Source: Gimesia benthica (GTDB lineage: Bacteria > Planctomycetota > Planctomycetia > Planctomycetales > Planctomycetaceae). Taken from it: a stretch of 64,000 nucleotides of DNA. Location: NCBI RefSeq assembly GCF_009720525.1, contig NZ_CP043930.1:7576001-7640000 (forward strand), read 5' to 3'. The notes under the pieces are model-generated. The model saw only the letters and a program-made list of their open reading frames with translations. It was not told the origin of the DNA and did not search any database. This document shows positions 60,624-64,000 of this stretch, one piece after another (position 1 is the stretch's first letter; each line of letters begins with the position of its first letter). Position numbers and translations under genes: made by a program.

Positions 60624-60845
60624 TTACAGGTTCCCGTGCTGCGCTGGAAAGAAAGGAATTCGGCAATGGGGTTTATTAAATGTACCCGGTGGTAGAACCC
60701 AGATCAATTCGGAACCCGTCGGTTCCCGCATTTCTTGTGAAGGCTTTCCGGCACGCTGAATCTCTGGTTGAGTCTGCTTCCGTCGATCCTTACAATAAAT
60801 CCTGAATCTGATCGATTTATCTCCTTTAACAGAAGACTTGCCTCC

Positions 60846-62435
60846 ATGGTCCATCCGCGCTCCCTTCGTTATCTCACCGTCTGTCTGTCGCTGCTGGCAC
60901 TCTTGTTTTCTGCCGGCGCAGTCGAGGCCGCCAAACGACCAAATATCATTCTGATCATGTGCGACGACATGGGCTTTTCGGATATCGGTTGTTACGGAGG
61001 CGAAGTCGATACGCCTCATCTGAACCAGCTCGCCCGGGAAGGCATGCGGTTCACCCAGTTCTACAACAACGCCAAATGCACGACGACCCGCGCCTCGATT
61101 CTGACCGGCCTGTATCCTCGCTTCGGTAAAGGGGGACACCTCAGGCAGAACATGGTCACGTTGGGCGAAGCGATGAAAGTCGCCGGCTACCAGACCGGCC
61201 TGAGCGGCAAATGGCATCTGATGAAGACCAAAGGTTACGCCAAGAGCAAAGTCCCGGGAGGCTGGCTCGACCGCTACGACAAAACGACGCACCCCTATTT
61301 CCGTGGCTTCGACTCGTATTACGGCGTGCTTGATGGCTGTTGTAACTTTTTCGACCCGACCATCTCCGATCCCCCGTATAAACGAGCAGGGATTCGCAGT
61401 TTCGGCCACGACGACAAAGCCGTCACCGAGTTCAAAGACGGCTATTACACCACCGATGCCTTCACCGACCATACCCTGGGGATGATCCGCAGCTACAGTC
61501 AGAATGAGCAACCGTTCTTTATTCACCTCTGTTACACCGCGCCCCACTATCCGCTGCACGCTAAGCCGGAGGATATCCGGAAGTACGTTGGAAAATTCAA
61601 AATGGGCTGGAACCAGCTGCGTAAGAATCGTTGGGAACGTCTGCAGGAACTCGGTATTGCCGGCGAGAATTGGTCGCTCTCCGAAGGTGACAGCCGCAGC
61701 TATGACTGGGAGACCGCGAACAAGGATTTCGAAGATCTGCGTATGGCCGTCTATGCCGCGATGATCGACTGCATGGATCAGAACATCGGCCGCATCAAAG
61801 AGACACTGAAAGAAACCGGACAACTCGACAATACACTGATCGTGTTCCTTTCCGATAACGGCGGCTGCAGTGAAGAACCGGGCGGACGCGATCCCAACGT
61901 CCGCCAGCCCGGCCCGAAAGACGATTACGTTGCCGTCGGTCCCGCCTGGGGCTGGGCTCAGAATTCTCCCTTCCGCAGATACAAGTCCTGGGTTCACGAA
62001 GGGGGCATCTCCACTCCCTGTATCGCCTGGTGGCCCGGCAAGGTCCCCGCGAACAGCATCAATCGCAGCCCCGCGCACATCATCGATCTTCTGCCCACCT
62101 TTCTGGAAATCGCTCAGACCGAGTACCCCGAGTCTTACCAGGGACACGAACTGCTCCCCCTGGAAGGCACCAGCATGCTCAGCCTGCTCGCAGGGGAGCA
62201 TAAAACACTGCACGATTCGCTGGCCTGGTACTGGTCCGGCAACCGCGCACTCAGACAGGGGCCCTGGAAGCTGGTCTGGGACAAAGGCGTCAAGCAATGG
62301 GAGCTCTACGACATCAGTTCCGACCGCTGCGAAACCAACAACCTCGCGGATCAGCACCCCGAACGCGTCCAGCAGATGGCGCAAGACTGGTTCACCTGGG
62401 CCAACAAAGTGGAGTTGAACACCAAGGCGAAATAG
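60846..62435 (+). CDS. Secreted arylsulfatase-like protein with CTTTR active-site motif
   Basis: A 529-residue exported sulfatase of the arylsulfatase A type. The signal peptide is residues 1-29; the ATG at 60846 was chosen over an upstream start because it begins the signal. The metal-binding MCDDMGFSDIGCYGG is at about 38-52. The formylglycine motif is CTTTR at residues 78-82, with Thr in place of the usual Pro or Ala at the third position. Other landmarks are GLSGKWHLMK and LSDNGGCSEEPGG, the distal metal site. The protein is full-length and otherwise looks active. A long ORF on the opposite strand is an antisense artefact. It is next to the propeller genes, fitting sulfated-glycan breakdown. 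Confidence 0.9.
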   Translation: MVHPRSLRYLTVCLSLLALLFSAGAVEAAKRPNIILIMCDDMGFSDIGCYGGEVDTPHLNQLAREGMRFTQFYNNAKCTTTRASILTGLYPRFGKGGHLRQNMVTLGEAMKVAGYQTGLSGKWHLMKTKGYAKSKVPGGWLDRYDKTTHPYFRGFDSYYGVLDGCCNFFDPTISDPPYKRAGIRSFGHDDKAVTEFKDGYYTTDAFTDHTLGMIRSYSQNEQPFFIHLCYTAPHYPLHAKPEDIRKYVGKFKMGWNQLRKNRWERLQELGIAGENWSLSEGDSRSYDWETANKDFEDLRMAVYAAMIDCMDQNIGRIKETLKETGQLDNTLIVFLSDNGGCSEEPGGRDPNVRQPGPKDDYVAVGPAWGWAQNSPFRRYKSWVHEGGISTPCIAWWPGKVPANSINRSPAHIIDLLPTFLEIAQTEYPESYQGHELLPLEGTSMLSLLAGEHKTLHDSLAWYWSGNRALRQGPWKLVWDKGVKQWELYDISSDRCETNNLADQHPERVQQMAQDWFTWANKVELNTKAK

Positions 62436-62566
62436 CTGAGCTGGCAATCCGGAATGATGGGCGATCATCTTGCACTCCTTCTCCTGAGCGGAATGGCGCT
62501 AGCCACCGGTAATTGAGCAAGACTTCGCTGTTGCGAACAGGAACAGCACCCATTCCACGCCCCACC

Positions 62567-62620
62567 GGGTGTTCCCGGATAAAATCCGGGATTGCCGCAG
62601 GCAACAGGAGGTCTCAGTGC
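62567..62620. repeat. Structured repeat, copy 1 (two hairpins)
   Basis: GGGTG is followed by hairpin 1 (TCCCGGAT-AAA-ATCCGGGA), hairpin 2 (TTGCC-GCA-GGCAA) and the tail CAGGAGGTCTCAG. It is almost identical to copy 2 through both hairpins. The third-hairpin arm found in copies 2 and 3 is not kept here. Confidence 0.85.
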
Positions 62621-63040
62621 AAACAGACAATCCACATTCAACTCTCCCATCCCTTCCATCAAACACCACCTCACGAATCCTGTTAGACCCACATATTGTT
62701 TAAAAAAATTAGCCGCAGGGCATTAGCCCCGGTTGAAACGACTTTGGTCTATGCCCTTCGAATTAAGCAACGCTACTTGGCACCTTGCCGCTCAACCAAC
62801 TGAACTTCCCTCACCCACAACTGAATAAACTCACCTTGATCGGCTCCTGCTTCCCCGTATCCTGTTCCCAATCTGGCTCGCGCGCGAGACGGGAAAGAGA
62901 CACCAGGCAGCAAAACGCACCAGTGCCCCACATCCACCTGAAAAACCATCGATTTTCACTTCCTGTTCACGGAAACATCCCGCAGCTGTTACCTGAATCC
63001 ACTTTTGACTCAGGGCACAGCAGGACAGAAACAAGCCAGA

Positions 63041-63106
63041 CCAGGACAAATTCCCGGACACTCCAGGACAAAATCCGGTCACATTGGGACAAAATTCTGT
63101 CTTGAC
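63041..63106. repeat. Imperfect 22-bp tandem repeat, three units
   Basis: Three 22-base units start at 63041, 63063 and 63085. Each carries GGACAAA or GGGACAAAA, followed by a short C/T-rich part. The third unit contains GACAAAATTCTGTC, whose ends GACA and TGTC are inverted. The units are diverged, so this is an old array or a set of binding sites. Confidence 0.7.
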
Positions 63107-63396
63107 TCCCCGACGCCGTTTCGCAAAATTAAAACCATCAATCATGATCGCAGGTACGATATCCATCACGAACTCCTCGAATGTCTGGAGATAAAAAGAG
63201 TTGTAGGGGAGGACCCATGTGTCCTCCCGCCAGTTCAAACGCCAGCCGCGAAAACAGCCAGTGGCCTGGTTCAATTACGGAGCTGACTACAACATCGATC
63301 AGCGACCGTCCCAAATCCAGAAAATCATACCGATCGGCGCACCCAGAGCCAGAGCAAGAATAACCAGCGCATATCCACCACCAGTAAAAGAAAAAA

Positions 63397-63472
63397 GGGT
63401 GGTCCCGGATAAAATCCGGGATTGCCGCAGGCAACAGGAAATCTCAGAGCAAGCACACTAAGTAAGAGAGAT
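63397..63472. repeat. Structured repeat, copy 2 (three hairpins)
   Basis: GGGTG, hairpin 1 (TCCCGGAT-AAA-ATCCGGGA, 63403-63421), hairpin 2 (TTGCC-GCA-GGCAA, 63422-63434) and hairpin 3 (ATCTC at 63441-63445 with GAGAT at 63468-63472). The 22-base gap in hairpin 3 equals that of copy 3. Confidence 0.85.
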
Positions 63473-63533
63473 AATCCTCACCCTCTAATCGAGCAATTCA
63501 GTGTCATACCAAAGAATCAAAACAACGATCACC

Positions 63534-63609
63534 GGGTGGCCTCGAATGAAATTCGAGGTTGTCAAAGACAACAAGAGGTCTCAGAGTAAGCGTACGCTGG
63601 ACGAGAGAC
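63534..63609. repeat. Structured repeat, copy 3 (three hairpins, covarying)
   Basis: GGGTG, hairpin 1 (CCTCGAAT-GAA-ATTCGAGG, 63540-63558), hairpin 2 (TTGTC-AAA-GACAA, 63559-63571) and hairpin 3 (GTCTC at 63578-63582 with GAGAC at 63605-63609). Compared with copies 1 and 2, three pairs in hairpin 1 and one in hairpin 2 change on both sides so that pairing is kept. Hairpin 3 has one more such pair relative to copy 2. Confidence 0.88.
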
Positions 63610-63655
63610 AAACCTCACCTGCTGAGCTCAAATCCATTCAACTACGTTCACAACC

Positions 63656-64000
63656 TCAAGGCAGATCATCATACGTCAGCGTAGCCAACCCGATCTGCTG
63701 CGCATGTGCCAGAATCGCCTCCAACACCCGCGGCTGTAGATGATGTCCCGGCCCCTTGTCACTGATGTTGTGCGCATAAAAGATCACAATCTCACCCCGC
63801 TGCTGCGCATGATCCAGGGCATCTTTGATCTCCACCAGGTAATCGGGCCGCTTCTCCGTCCCCGCGTAATCGATGCCCGTGCCGATCAGACAACCGCGGT
63901 CGGCTATCTGGTCAACCGGCACATAAATCGATTTCAGATCCCGCATCCGCTGACCCGCAGTTAAACCGGTCCCACCCCGCAGATGTCGGAACGTTTTCAG
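63656..64000 (-). CDS. Polysaccharide deacetylase-like protein, C-terminal part (runs off window)
   Basis: The last 114 codons of a gene that enters from the right edge. The frame is open to the edge: the codons before the in-frame ATG at 63946 read LKTFRHLRGGTGLTAGQRM, so that ATG is internal. The segment EIVIFYAHNISDKGPGHHLQP contains the late His of NodB-type polysaccharide deacetylases, followed by a helix and a final strand, IGLATLTYDDLP, which is the usual end of that fold. The early catalytic motifs (TFDDG and HxxxH) lie outside the window, so activity cannot be judged. The structured repeat copy 3 lies just beyond its 3' end. Confidence 0.75.
   Translation of the reverse strand: MKTFRHLRGGTGLTAGQRMRDLKSIYVPVDQIADRGCLIGTGIDYAGTEKRPDYLVEIKDALDHAQQRGEIVIFYAHNISDKGPGHHLQPRVLEAILAHAQQIGLATLTYDDLP

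Follow-up and report, generated by a model that had tools for sequence, protein, structure and literature searches.

What is the element that occurs three times downstream of a sulfatase gene in Gimesia benthica, and how has it come to be repeated? The window (the whole stretch of DNA analysed, 64,000 nucleotides) contains a 62-nt block at 62567, 63397 and 63534, each time on the plus strand and with 90% and 71% identity of the other two copies to the first, between the sulfatase gene (60768-62435, plus strand) and a minus-strand open frame ending at 63656. An initial annotation had proposed either a mobile, REP-like element for which a Y1 transposase is responsible or a structured small RNA, and had expected a mobile element to show many dispersed copies, further covariation and perhaps a transposase gene. 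The evidence presented below supports the former: the window copies are, very probably, half units from a family of REPs (repetitive extragenic palindromes) belonging to a RAYT (REP-associated tyrosine transposase), a HuH/Y1 protein encoded elsewhere in the same genome, with a doublet of half units as the presumed mobile form and a proposed mechanism acting on single-stranded DNA.

Layout, copy number and covariation

Each window copy comprises GGGTG, one further base, hairpin 1 (8 bp with a 3-base loop), hairpin 2 (5 bp with a 3-base loop) and then CARGA...TCTCAG, and the positions, stems and common GGGTG/two-hairpin/TCTCAG layout are as originally described. Copy 1 (62567..62650, plus strand) has hairpin 1 at 62573-62591, hairpin 2 at 62592-62604, CA at 62605-62606 and a mutated foot, GTGT. 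Copy 2 (63397..63484, plus strand) has the foot GTGG at 63399-63402, hairpin 1 at 63403-63421, hairpin 2 at 63422-63434 and CA at 63435-63436, while copy 3 (63534..63622, plus strand) has hairpin 1 at 63540-63558 and hairpin 2 at 63559-63571; the 3′ ends of all three are approximate. Between copies 2 and 3, five base pairs were correctly reported to change on both sides, three in hairpin 1, one in hairpin 2 and one in a local stem 3. To treat these changes as direct evidence of selection on the fold was strong wording for three paralogues, and it is the wider family that bears the claim out, since its stems are wholly different in sequence across genera yet still pair.

Using copy 2 as a DNA query, 32 places were found in the 8.03-Mb G. 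benthica genome. A covariance model built from an alignment of 30 of the genome’s copies matched at least 117 (E 0.01), a lower bound for which 150 of 5244 first-look candidates were scored, and the many dispersed copies expected of a mobile element are therefore present. Both hairpins covary over the 30 aligned copies. Specifically, 98.5% of paired cells are consistent with pairing (reached by 0 of 500 shuffles); two-sided changes, counts of which are inflated by kinship among the copies, occupy 23 cells versus 4.2 in shuffles (again 0 of 500) and touch 5 of the 13 base pairs (5 of 500 shuffles reach 5). When the partner column was slid by 1-3 columns, at most 2 two-sided cells were left, and the number of further pair types (7, versus 7.6 in shuffles) was not above chance. 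We argue, from the slid controls and the other genera described below, that the covariation signal is likely to be real despite the relatedness of the copies.

The alignment also reveals the GT[AG]G at the hairpin foot by which REPs are recognized: GTGG is present in 26 of 30 rows, the exceptions being window copy 1 (GTGT) and the copies at L013, L026 and L029, and CA lies directly 3′ of hairpin 2 in all 30. As in other REP families, the many copies (at least 117) lie mostly between genes. The element’s midpoint falls within an open reading frame of at least 150 aa in 7 of 30 cases, versus 64% coverage of those loci by such frames, and within one of 100 aa in 15 of 30, versus 79% coverage, both comparisons being with open frames rather than annotated genes.

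The third stem, which had been described with an identical 22-base gap in two copies, is indeed present in copy 2 (63441-63445 / 63468-63472, plus strand) and copy 3 (63578-63582 / 63605-63609, plus strand), and is part of the DNA minimum-energy fold of the former and absent from that of the latter. It is not family-wide. Among 98 of the 117 matches, a local stem of 6 bp, a length that leaves the 5-bp stems seen in copies 2 and 3 themselves uncounted, occurred in 3 of 24 solo A copies (shuffled mean 1.5), 3 of 20 paired A copies (0.8), 0 of 32 solo B copies (1.5) and 3 of 22 paired B copies (1.5), A and B being the two types of half unit defined in the next section. Paired A copies modestly exceed the chance expectation, with 7 of 200 shuffles attaining their count, and the other three groups do not; the third stem was rejected as a family feature.

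Half units, doublets and a polymorphic insertion

A half unit consists of GGGTGG, hairpin 1, hairpin 2 and CARGA. Scores from the covariance model divide the copies into 46 of type A (>60 bits) and 71 weaker ones assigned to type B, the boundary at 60 bits being our own choice and at least one of the 71 (2649564) resembling a damaged A. Type A has a Watson-Crick hairpin 2 (TTGCC-GCA-GGCAA), in place of which type B has CGAGC-NNN-GCGAG, a sequence that pairs only with two stacked G-A mismatches. Sheared tandem G-A pairs are stable in DNA. The plain B form (C-G, G-A, A-G, G-C, C-G) occurs in 43 of the 54 B copies examined, and four more have T-A as the outermost pair with the G-A pairs retained (one of these with T-G innermost); in the remaining seven variants, a pair is broken or weakened. 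All three window copies are A halves, and no B partner was found for them by the covariance model.

Elsewhere in the genome, 21 convergent pairs have starts 119-143 nt apart, and 20 of these join an A to a B. The resulting doublets of 172-195 nt carry GGGTGG outward at both ends and resemble REPINs and BIMEs, in that the 21 pairs are made up of two inverted REPs at a fixed spacing. The four bases that follow RGA (tail bases 4-7) are complementary at 77.5% of positions within 20 units versus 46.5% between units (0 of 5000 permutations), a difference that could also reflect shared descent of whole units; the first three tail bases are near-invariant and uninformative.

The region of the window copies was aligned in three related genomes, G004, G008 and G012. 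An insert of 134 nt containing copy 2 (63395..63528, plus strand) is present in G. benthica only and is absent from all three relatives, with both flanks retained and no target-site duplication beyond 1 ambiguous base; the empty-site junction is identical in G004 and G008, and a few bases differ in G012. Insertion in G. benthica would be the simplest reading of this difference. The orthologue of copy 3 is present in all three relatives and that of copy 1 in G008 and G012, with G004 being without most of hairpin 1; downstream of copy 1, the relatives have a B copy and G. benthica has other sequence. Five G. benthica regions in all were compared with these relatives. One copy shared by G. benthica and G012 is missing in G008, but its flanks are altered, as they are for the other copy differences, and copy 2 is thus the only clean case. 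A clean empty site of a complete doublet was not found at L064, L068, L152 or L153 in the same three relatives, some of these loci being otherwise rearranged. Repeats have turned over at the site near 862935 (contig position; about 9436 of L153): G. benthica has a solo B there, G004 has an A/B doublet, and in G008 and G012 a GTAG-type repeat accompanies an A and a B.

The insert is a half unit with a tail of about 45 nt, not a doublet, and this is what might be seen if the family were old and no longer moving and copy 2 had arrived by segmental exchange with another repeat cluster, a reading that is compatible with the family assignment and that the messy rearrangement of repeat clusters, as near 862935, also favors. 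We nevertheless regard it as unlikely, although not negligibly so: such an exchange accords poorly with the retained flanks and lack of duplication at copy 2, the frame of the RAYT gene is still open, and three units that neighbor the gene are 88-91% identical to the unit beside it.

The RAYT gene and its association with the element

Three Y1_Tnp genes are present in the G. benthica genome. One of these, at locus L032 (2163524-2164042, minus strand; frame 1381-1899 of the locus), matches Pfam Y1_Tnp and NCBIfam REP_Tyr_transpos and is flanked by the element, which provides the transposase gene that had been anticipated for a mobile family. Complete A/B units lie on both sides of the gene, two further units lie within 2.5 kb, and the gene’s last codons overlap the adjoining A half; the similarity of the three neighboring units to the gene-side unit (88-91%) has been noted above. 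Against REP_Tyr_transpos, the 172-aa protein scores 112.7 bits (cut-off 80), and against transpos_IS200 it scores 30.1 bits, below the cut-off of 55. Across 16 aligned relatives, there is no variation at the HuH histidines, W111 or Y132, and the protein has the HuH motif, the single catalytic tyrosine and the REP_Tyr_transpos match of a RAYT. The best solved relative of the family profile is TnpArep 4er8 (E 1.1e-9); for the single protein, no solved relative was found by phmmer at E 0.001.

At the other two Y1 genes, L031 and L033, the element was not found within 1.5 kb on each side by either a motif scan or the covariance model, and these genes were rejected as movers because other repeats lie beside them and the element is absent. 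By eye, the L031 gene (6217721-6218059) has GGGGTCAGGACTC before it and the inverted form after it, and the L033 gene is flanked by GAGCGG...CCGGT doublets; the three Y1 genes of this one genome thus have three different flanking repeats.

Several other repeats were observed in the window itself. A copy of the GAGCGG...GGCGCTAGCC...CCGGT family, the REP-like family that flanks the L033 gene as inverted doublets, lies at 62486-62512, and members of this family adjoin several copies of the element studied here. A GTAG-footed, REP-like palindrome, GTAGGGG...CCCATGTGTCC...CCCGCC, lies at 63203-63231, and its relatives are found directly 3′ of several solo copies of the element. Finally, 62797-63140 is a dispersed repeat of about 300 nt, present in at least 10 places in the G. 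benthica genome (the window included) that are 68-73% like the window copy, with more copies in G004, G008, G009 and G012. It contains a CTGGCTCGCGCGCGAG block and four GGACA-type units of 21-22 nt at 63011-63095, and ends in TGTCTTGAC, which is the same in four aligned copies; no Rfam match to it was found at E up to 1 in a search of 62430-63660.

The element and RAYT also occur together in other genera. Matches to the covariance model were found in 32 of 119 genomes, including 16 of the 17 of the genus (G. benthica among them). Outside the genus, 26 of 102 genomes contain RAYT relatives at E <1e-39, 16 contain matches to the model and 12 contain both, versus about 4 expected (Fisher p 7e-6, with the E cut chosen after the list had been viewed and the genome lists taken by eye). 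At 25 loci (L113-L137) encoding RAYTs of other genera, 46-54% identical to that of G. benthica, matches to the model (E up to 0.1; weakest best match E 0.018) lie beside the gene in 18, and an independent scan for GGRTRG...CARGA with two hairpins likewise succeeds in 18. One or other of the scans detects the element at 21 of the 25, and a family-specific RAYT flanked by its repeat is therefore found both in G. benthica (L032) and in other genera. Both scans miss four loci; inspection by eye reveals variants at L124, L127 and L128 but none at L114. Neither scan detects the element at any of 10 other Y1 loci (2 from G. benthica and 8 distant RAYT loci), and the motif scan finds it at 0 of the 25 loci in each of 20 shuffles. 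The motif scan is strict, missing one of five loci in the genus (L112) where the model does detect copies. Among 58 matches found by motif only, some of them overlapping, 44 form both hairpins, versus 0.9 expected from shuffled interiors. Stem sequences differ completely from one genus to another, and the foot, mostly GTGG or GTAG, and CARGA are largely retained. Searched against named genomes, the RAYT protein returned only eight relatives, all of them distant; half have Acidobacteria or Acidobacteriales in their titles, and the element is present at 0 of the 8.

Within the genus, a close RAYT (E <1e-60) is present in 5 of 17 genomes: G. benthica, G004, G007, G009 (in two frames) and G013. 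One close copy is present per genome in G. benthica, G004, G007 and G013, and the locus is the same in G. benthica, G004 and G009; with one copy per genome and a shared locus, the RAYT behaves as a fixed gene rather than as a moving insertion sequence. At the same locus, an A/B unit is found in G012 and a partly deleted one in G008, and another open frame (207 aa of other sequence, as read in G012) replaces the RAYT. A close RAYT at this threshold is absent from G005 (only 76% complete), G008, G011, G012 and G014, and more distant Y1 relatives exist in G008, G011 and G014. These five genomes hold 37-49 copies each, with up to 49 scored per genome, and it appears that copies either outlive their RAYT or are moved by another one.

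The Pfam Y1_Tnp assignment, together with inverted copies of the element lying nearby on either side of the gene (for example, at L117 and L126), might suggest non-autonomous relatives of IS200/IS605, in which the element would be the end of an insertion sequence and gene and ends would move as one transposon. This is highly improbable, as the protein falls below the IS200 cut-off and exceeds that for REP_Tyr_transpos, and the single close gene copy per genome, at one locus in G. benthica, G004 and G009, argues against gene and ends moving together. Highly improbable, too, is the idea of an RNA family (a structured small RNA or a cis-regulatory one), multi-copy by chance and with its fold selected for RNA function, which gained no support: covarying stems would look alike in RNA and the copies lie between convergent genes, where read-through transcription is possible, but the A/B doublets, transposase flanking across genera and polymorphic insertion are not expected of it, and no Rfam match was found in the window at the gathering score, nor in 62430-63660 with E allowed up to 1, a search that covers described families. 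Taken as a whole, the copies, their covariation, the A/B doublets, the linkage to RAYT genes across genera and the insertion of copy 2 argue for a REP family with its RAYT rather than an RNA gene.

A proposed mechanism and comparison with known systems

We infer that this RAYT moves the copies, that the doublet is the moving unit and that the steps involve single-stranded DNA with cleavage at CA. The hairpins would form on single-stranded DNA, such as the lagging-strand template, and the RAYT would bind hairpin 1 via its GTGG foot, cut at a guide-chosen dinucleotide, join the ends and insert the copy elsewhere without target duplication, the convergent A/B doublet (172-195 nt) being the presumed mobile unit. 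In the Marinomonas REPtron Mb, a GTAG foot is reported to lead to cleavage at CT and CA, and a GTGG foot to cleavage at CA (less efficiently) and CC (PMC8266576). Given these data, the GTGG foot in 26 of 30 copies and the CA in 30 of 30, cleavage at CA or CC would be predicted here, and the conserved CA just 3′ of hairpin 2 is the candidate site. It is tempting, if decidedly tentative, to suggest that the planctomycete RAYT branch reads a two-part signal, with the GTGG-footed hairpin 1 complemented by a hairpin 2 that fixes the position of CA cleavage, and that the asymmetric doublet, its B end marked by tandem sheared G-A pairs, allows left and right ends to be distinguished as in IS200/IS605. 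If this were true, such a doublet would be intermediate between REPINs and true insertion sequences.

The features by which REP families with a RAYT are defined, in the parts of the two accounts consulted (PMC6006769, PMC3733652), are present here insofar as they were tested, and a foot that is mostly GTGG is within the known GT[AG]G rule. Like the REPs and REPtrons of RAYTs (TnpAREP) in E. coli MG1655 and Stenotrophomonas, as described in excerpts of PMC8266576 and PMC6006769, the family has a hairpin with GT[AG]G at its base, is scattered between genes in many copies, forms inverted doublets from two subtypes (those of E. coli being y and z) and flanks a RAYT gene whose HuH-Tyr protein is related to 4er8. 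Unlike those systems as excerpted, it has two adjacent hairpins per half with a conserved CARGA after the second, tandem G-A mismatches in the hairpin 2 of one subtype (B), and doublets of about 185 nt. In the REPINs of Pseudomonas fluorescens SBW25, the convergent REP doublet, which is more conserved there than singlets are, is likewise the presumed replicative unit and singlets are its remnants, but the halves here are unlike in sequence (A versus B) and have two hairpins each, a difference drawn from part of that paper (PMC3116915). TIRtrons, with their double palindromic terminal repeats, are similar in combining Y1 genes with inverted, possibly doubly palindromic repeats that also occur elsewhere in the genome, and differ, in the passages concerned, by the GT[AG]G foot that is present here; the same passages mention a plethora of tyrosine transposase genes with flanking repeats in R. 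baltica (PMC3733652).

A search of one literature collection found no paper combining Gimesia with repetitive extragenic palindromes. The combination of two adjacent hairpins, A/B asymmetry and G-A mismatches looks new, being absent from the REP descriptions compared, although a planctomycete relative may exist among those listed in the fuller sources (PMC3733652, PMC6006769). RAYT recognition and cut-site choice have been studied experimentally in a few proteobacterial systems (PMC8266576). The planctomycete family offers a natural experiment beside these, in which the foot and CARGA are retained, both stems turn over between genera and a single genome has two end types, and continued movement of the copies could be tested by comparing close relatives that have the RAYT with those that lack it.
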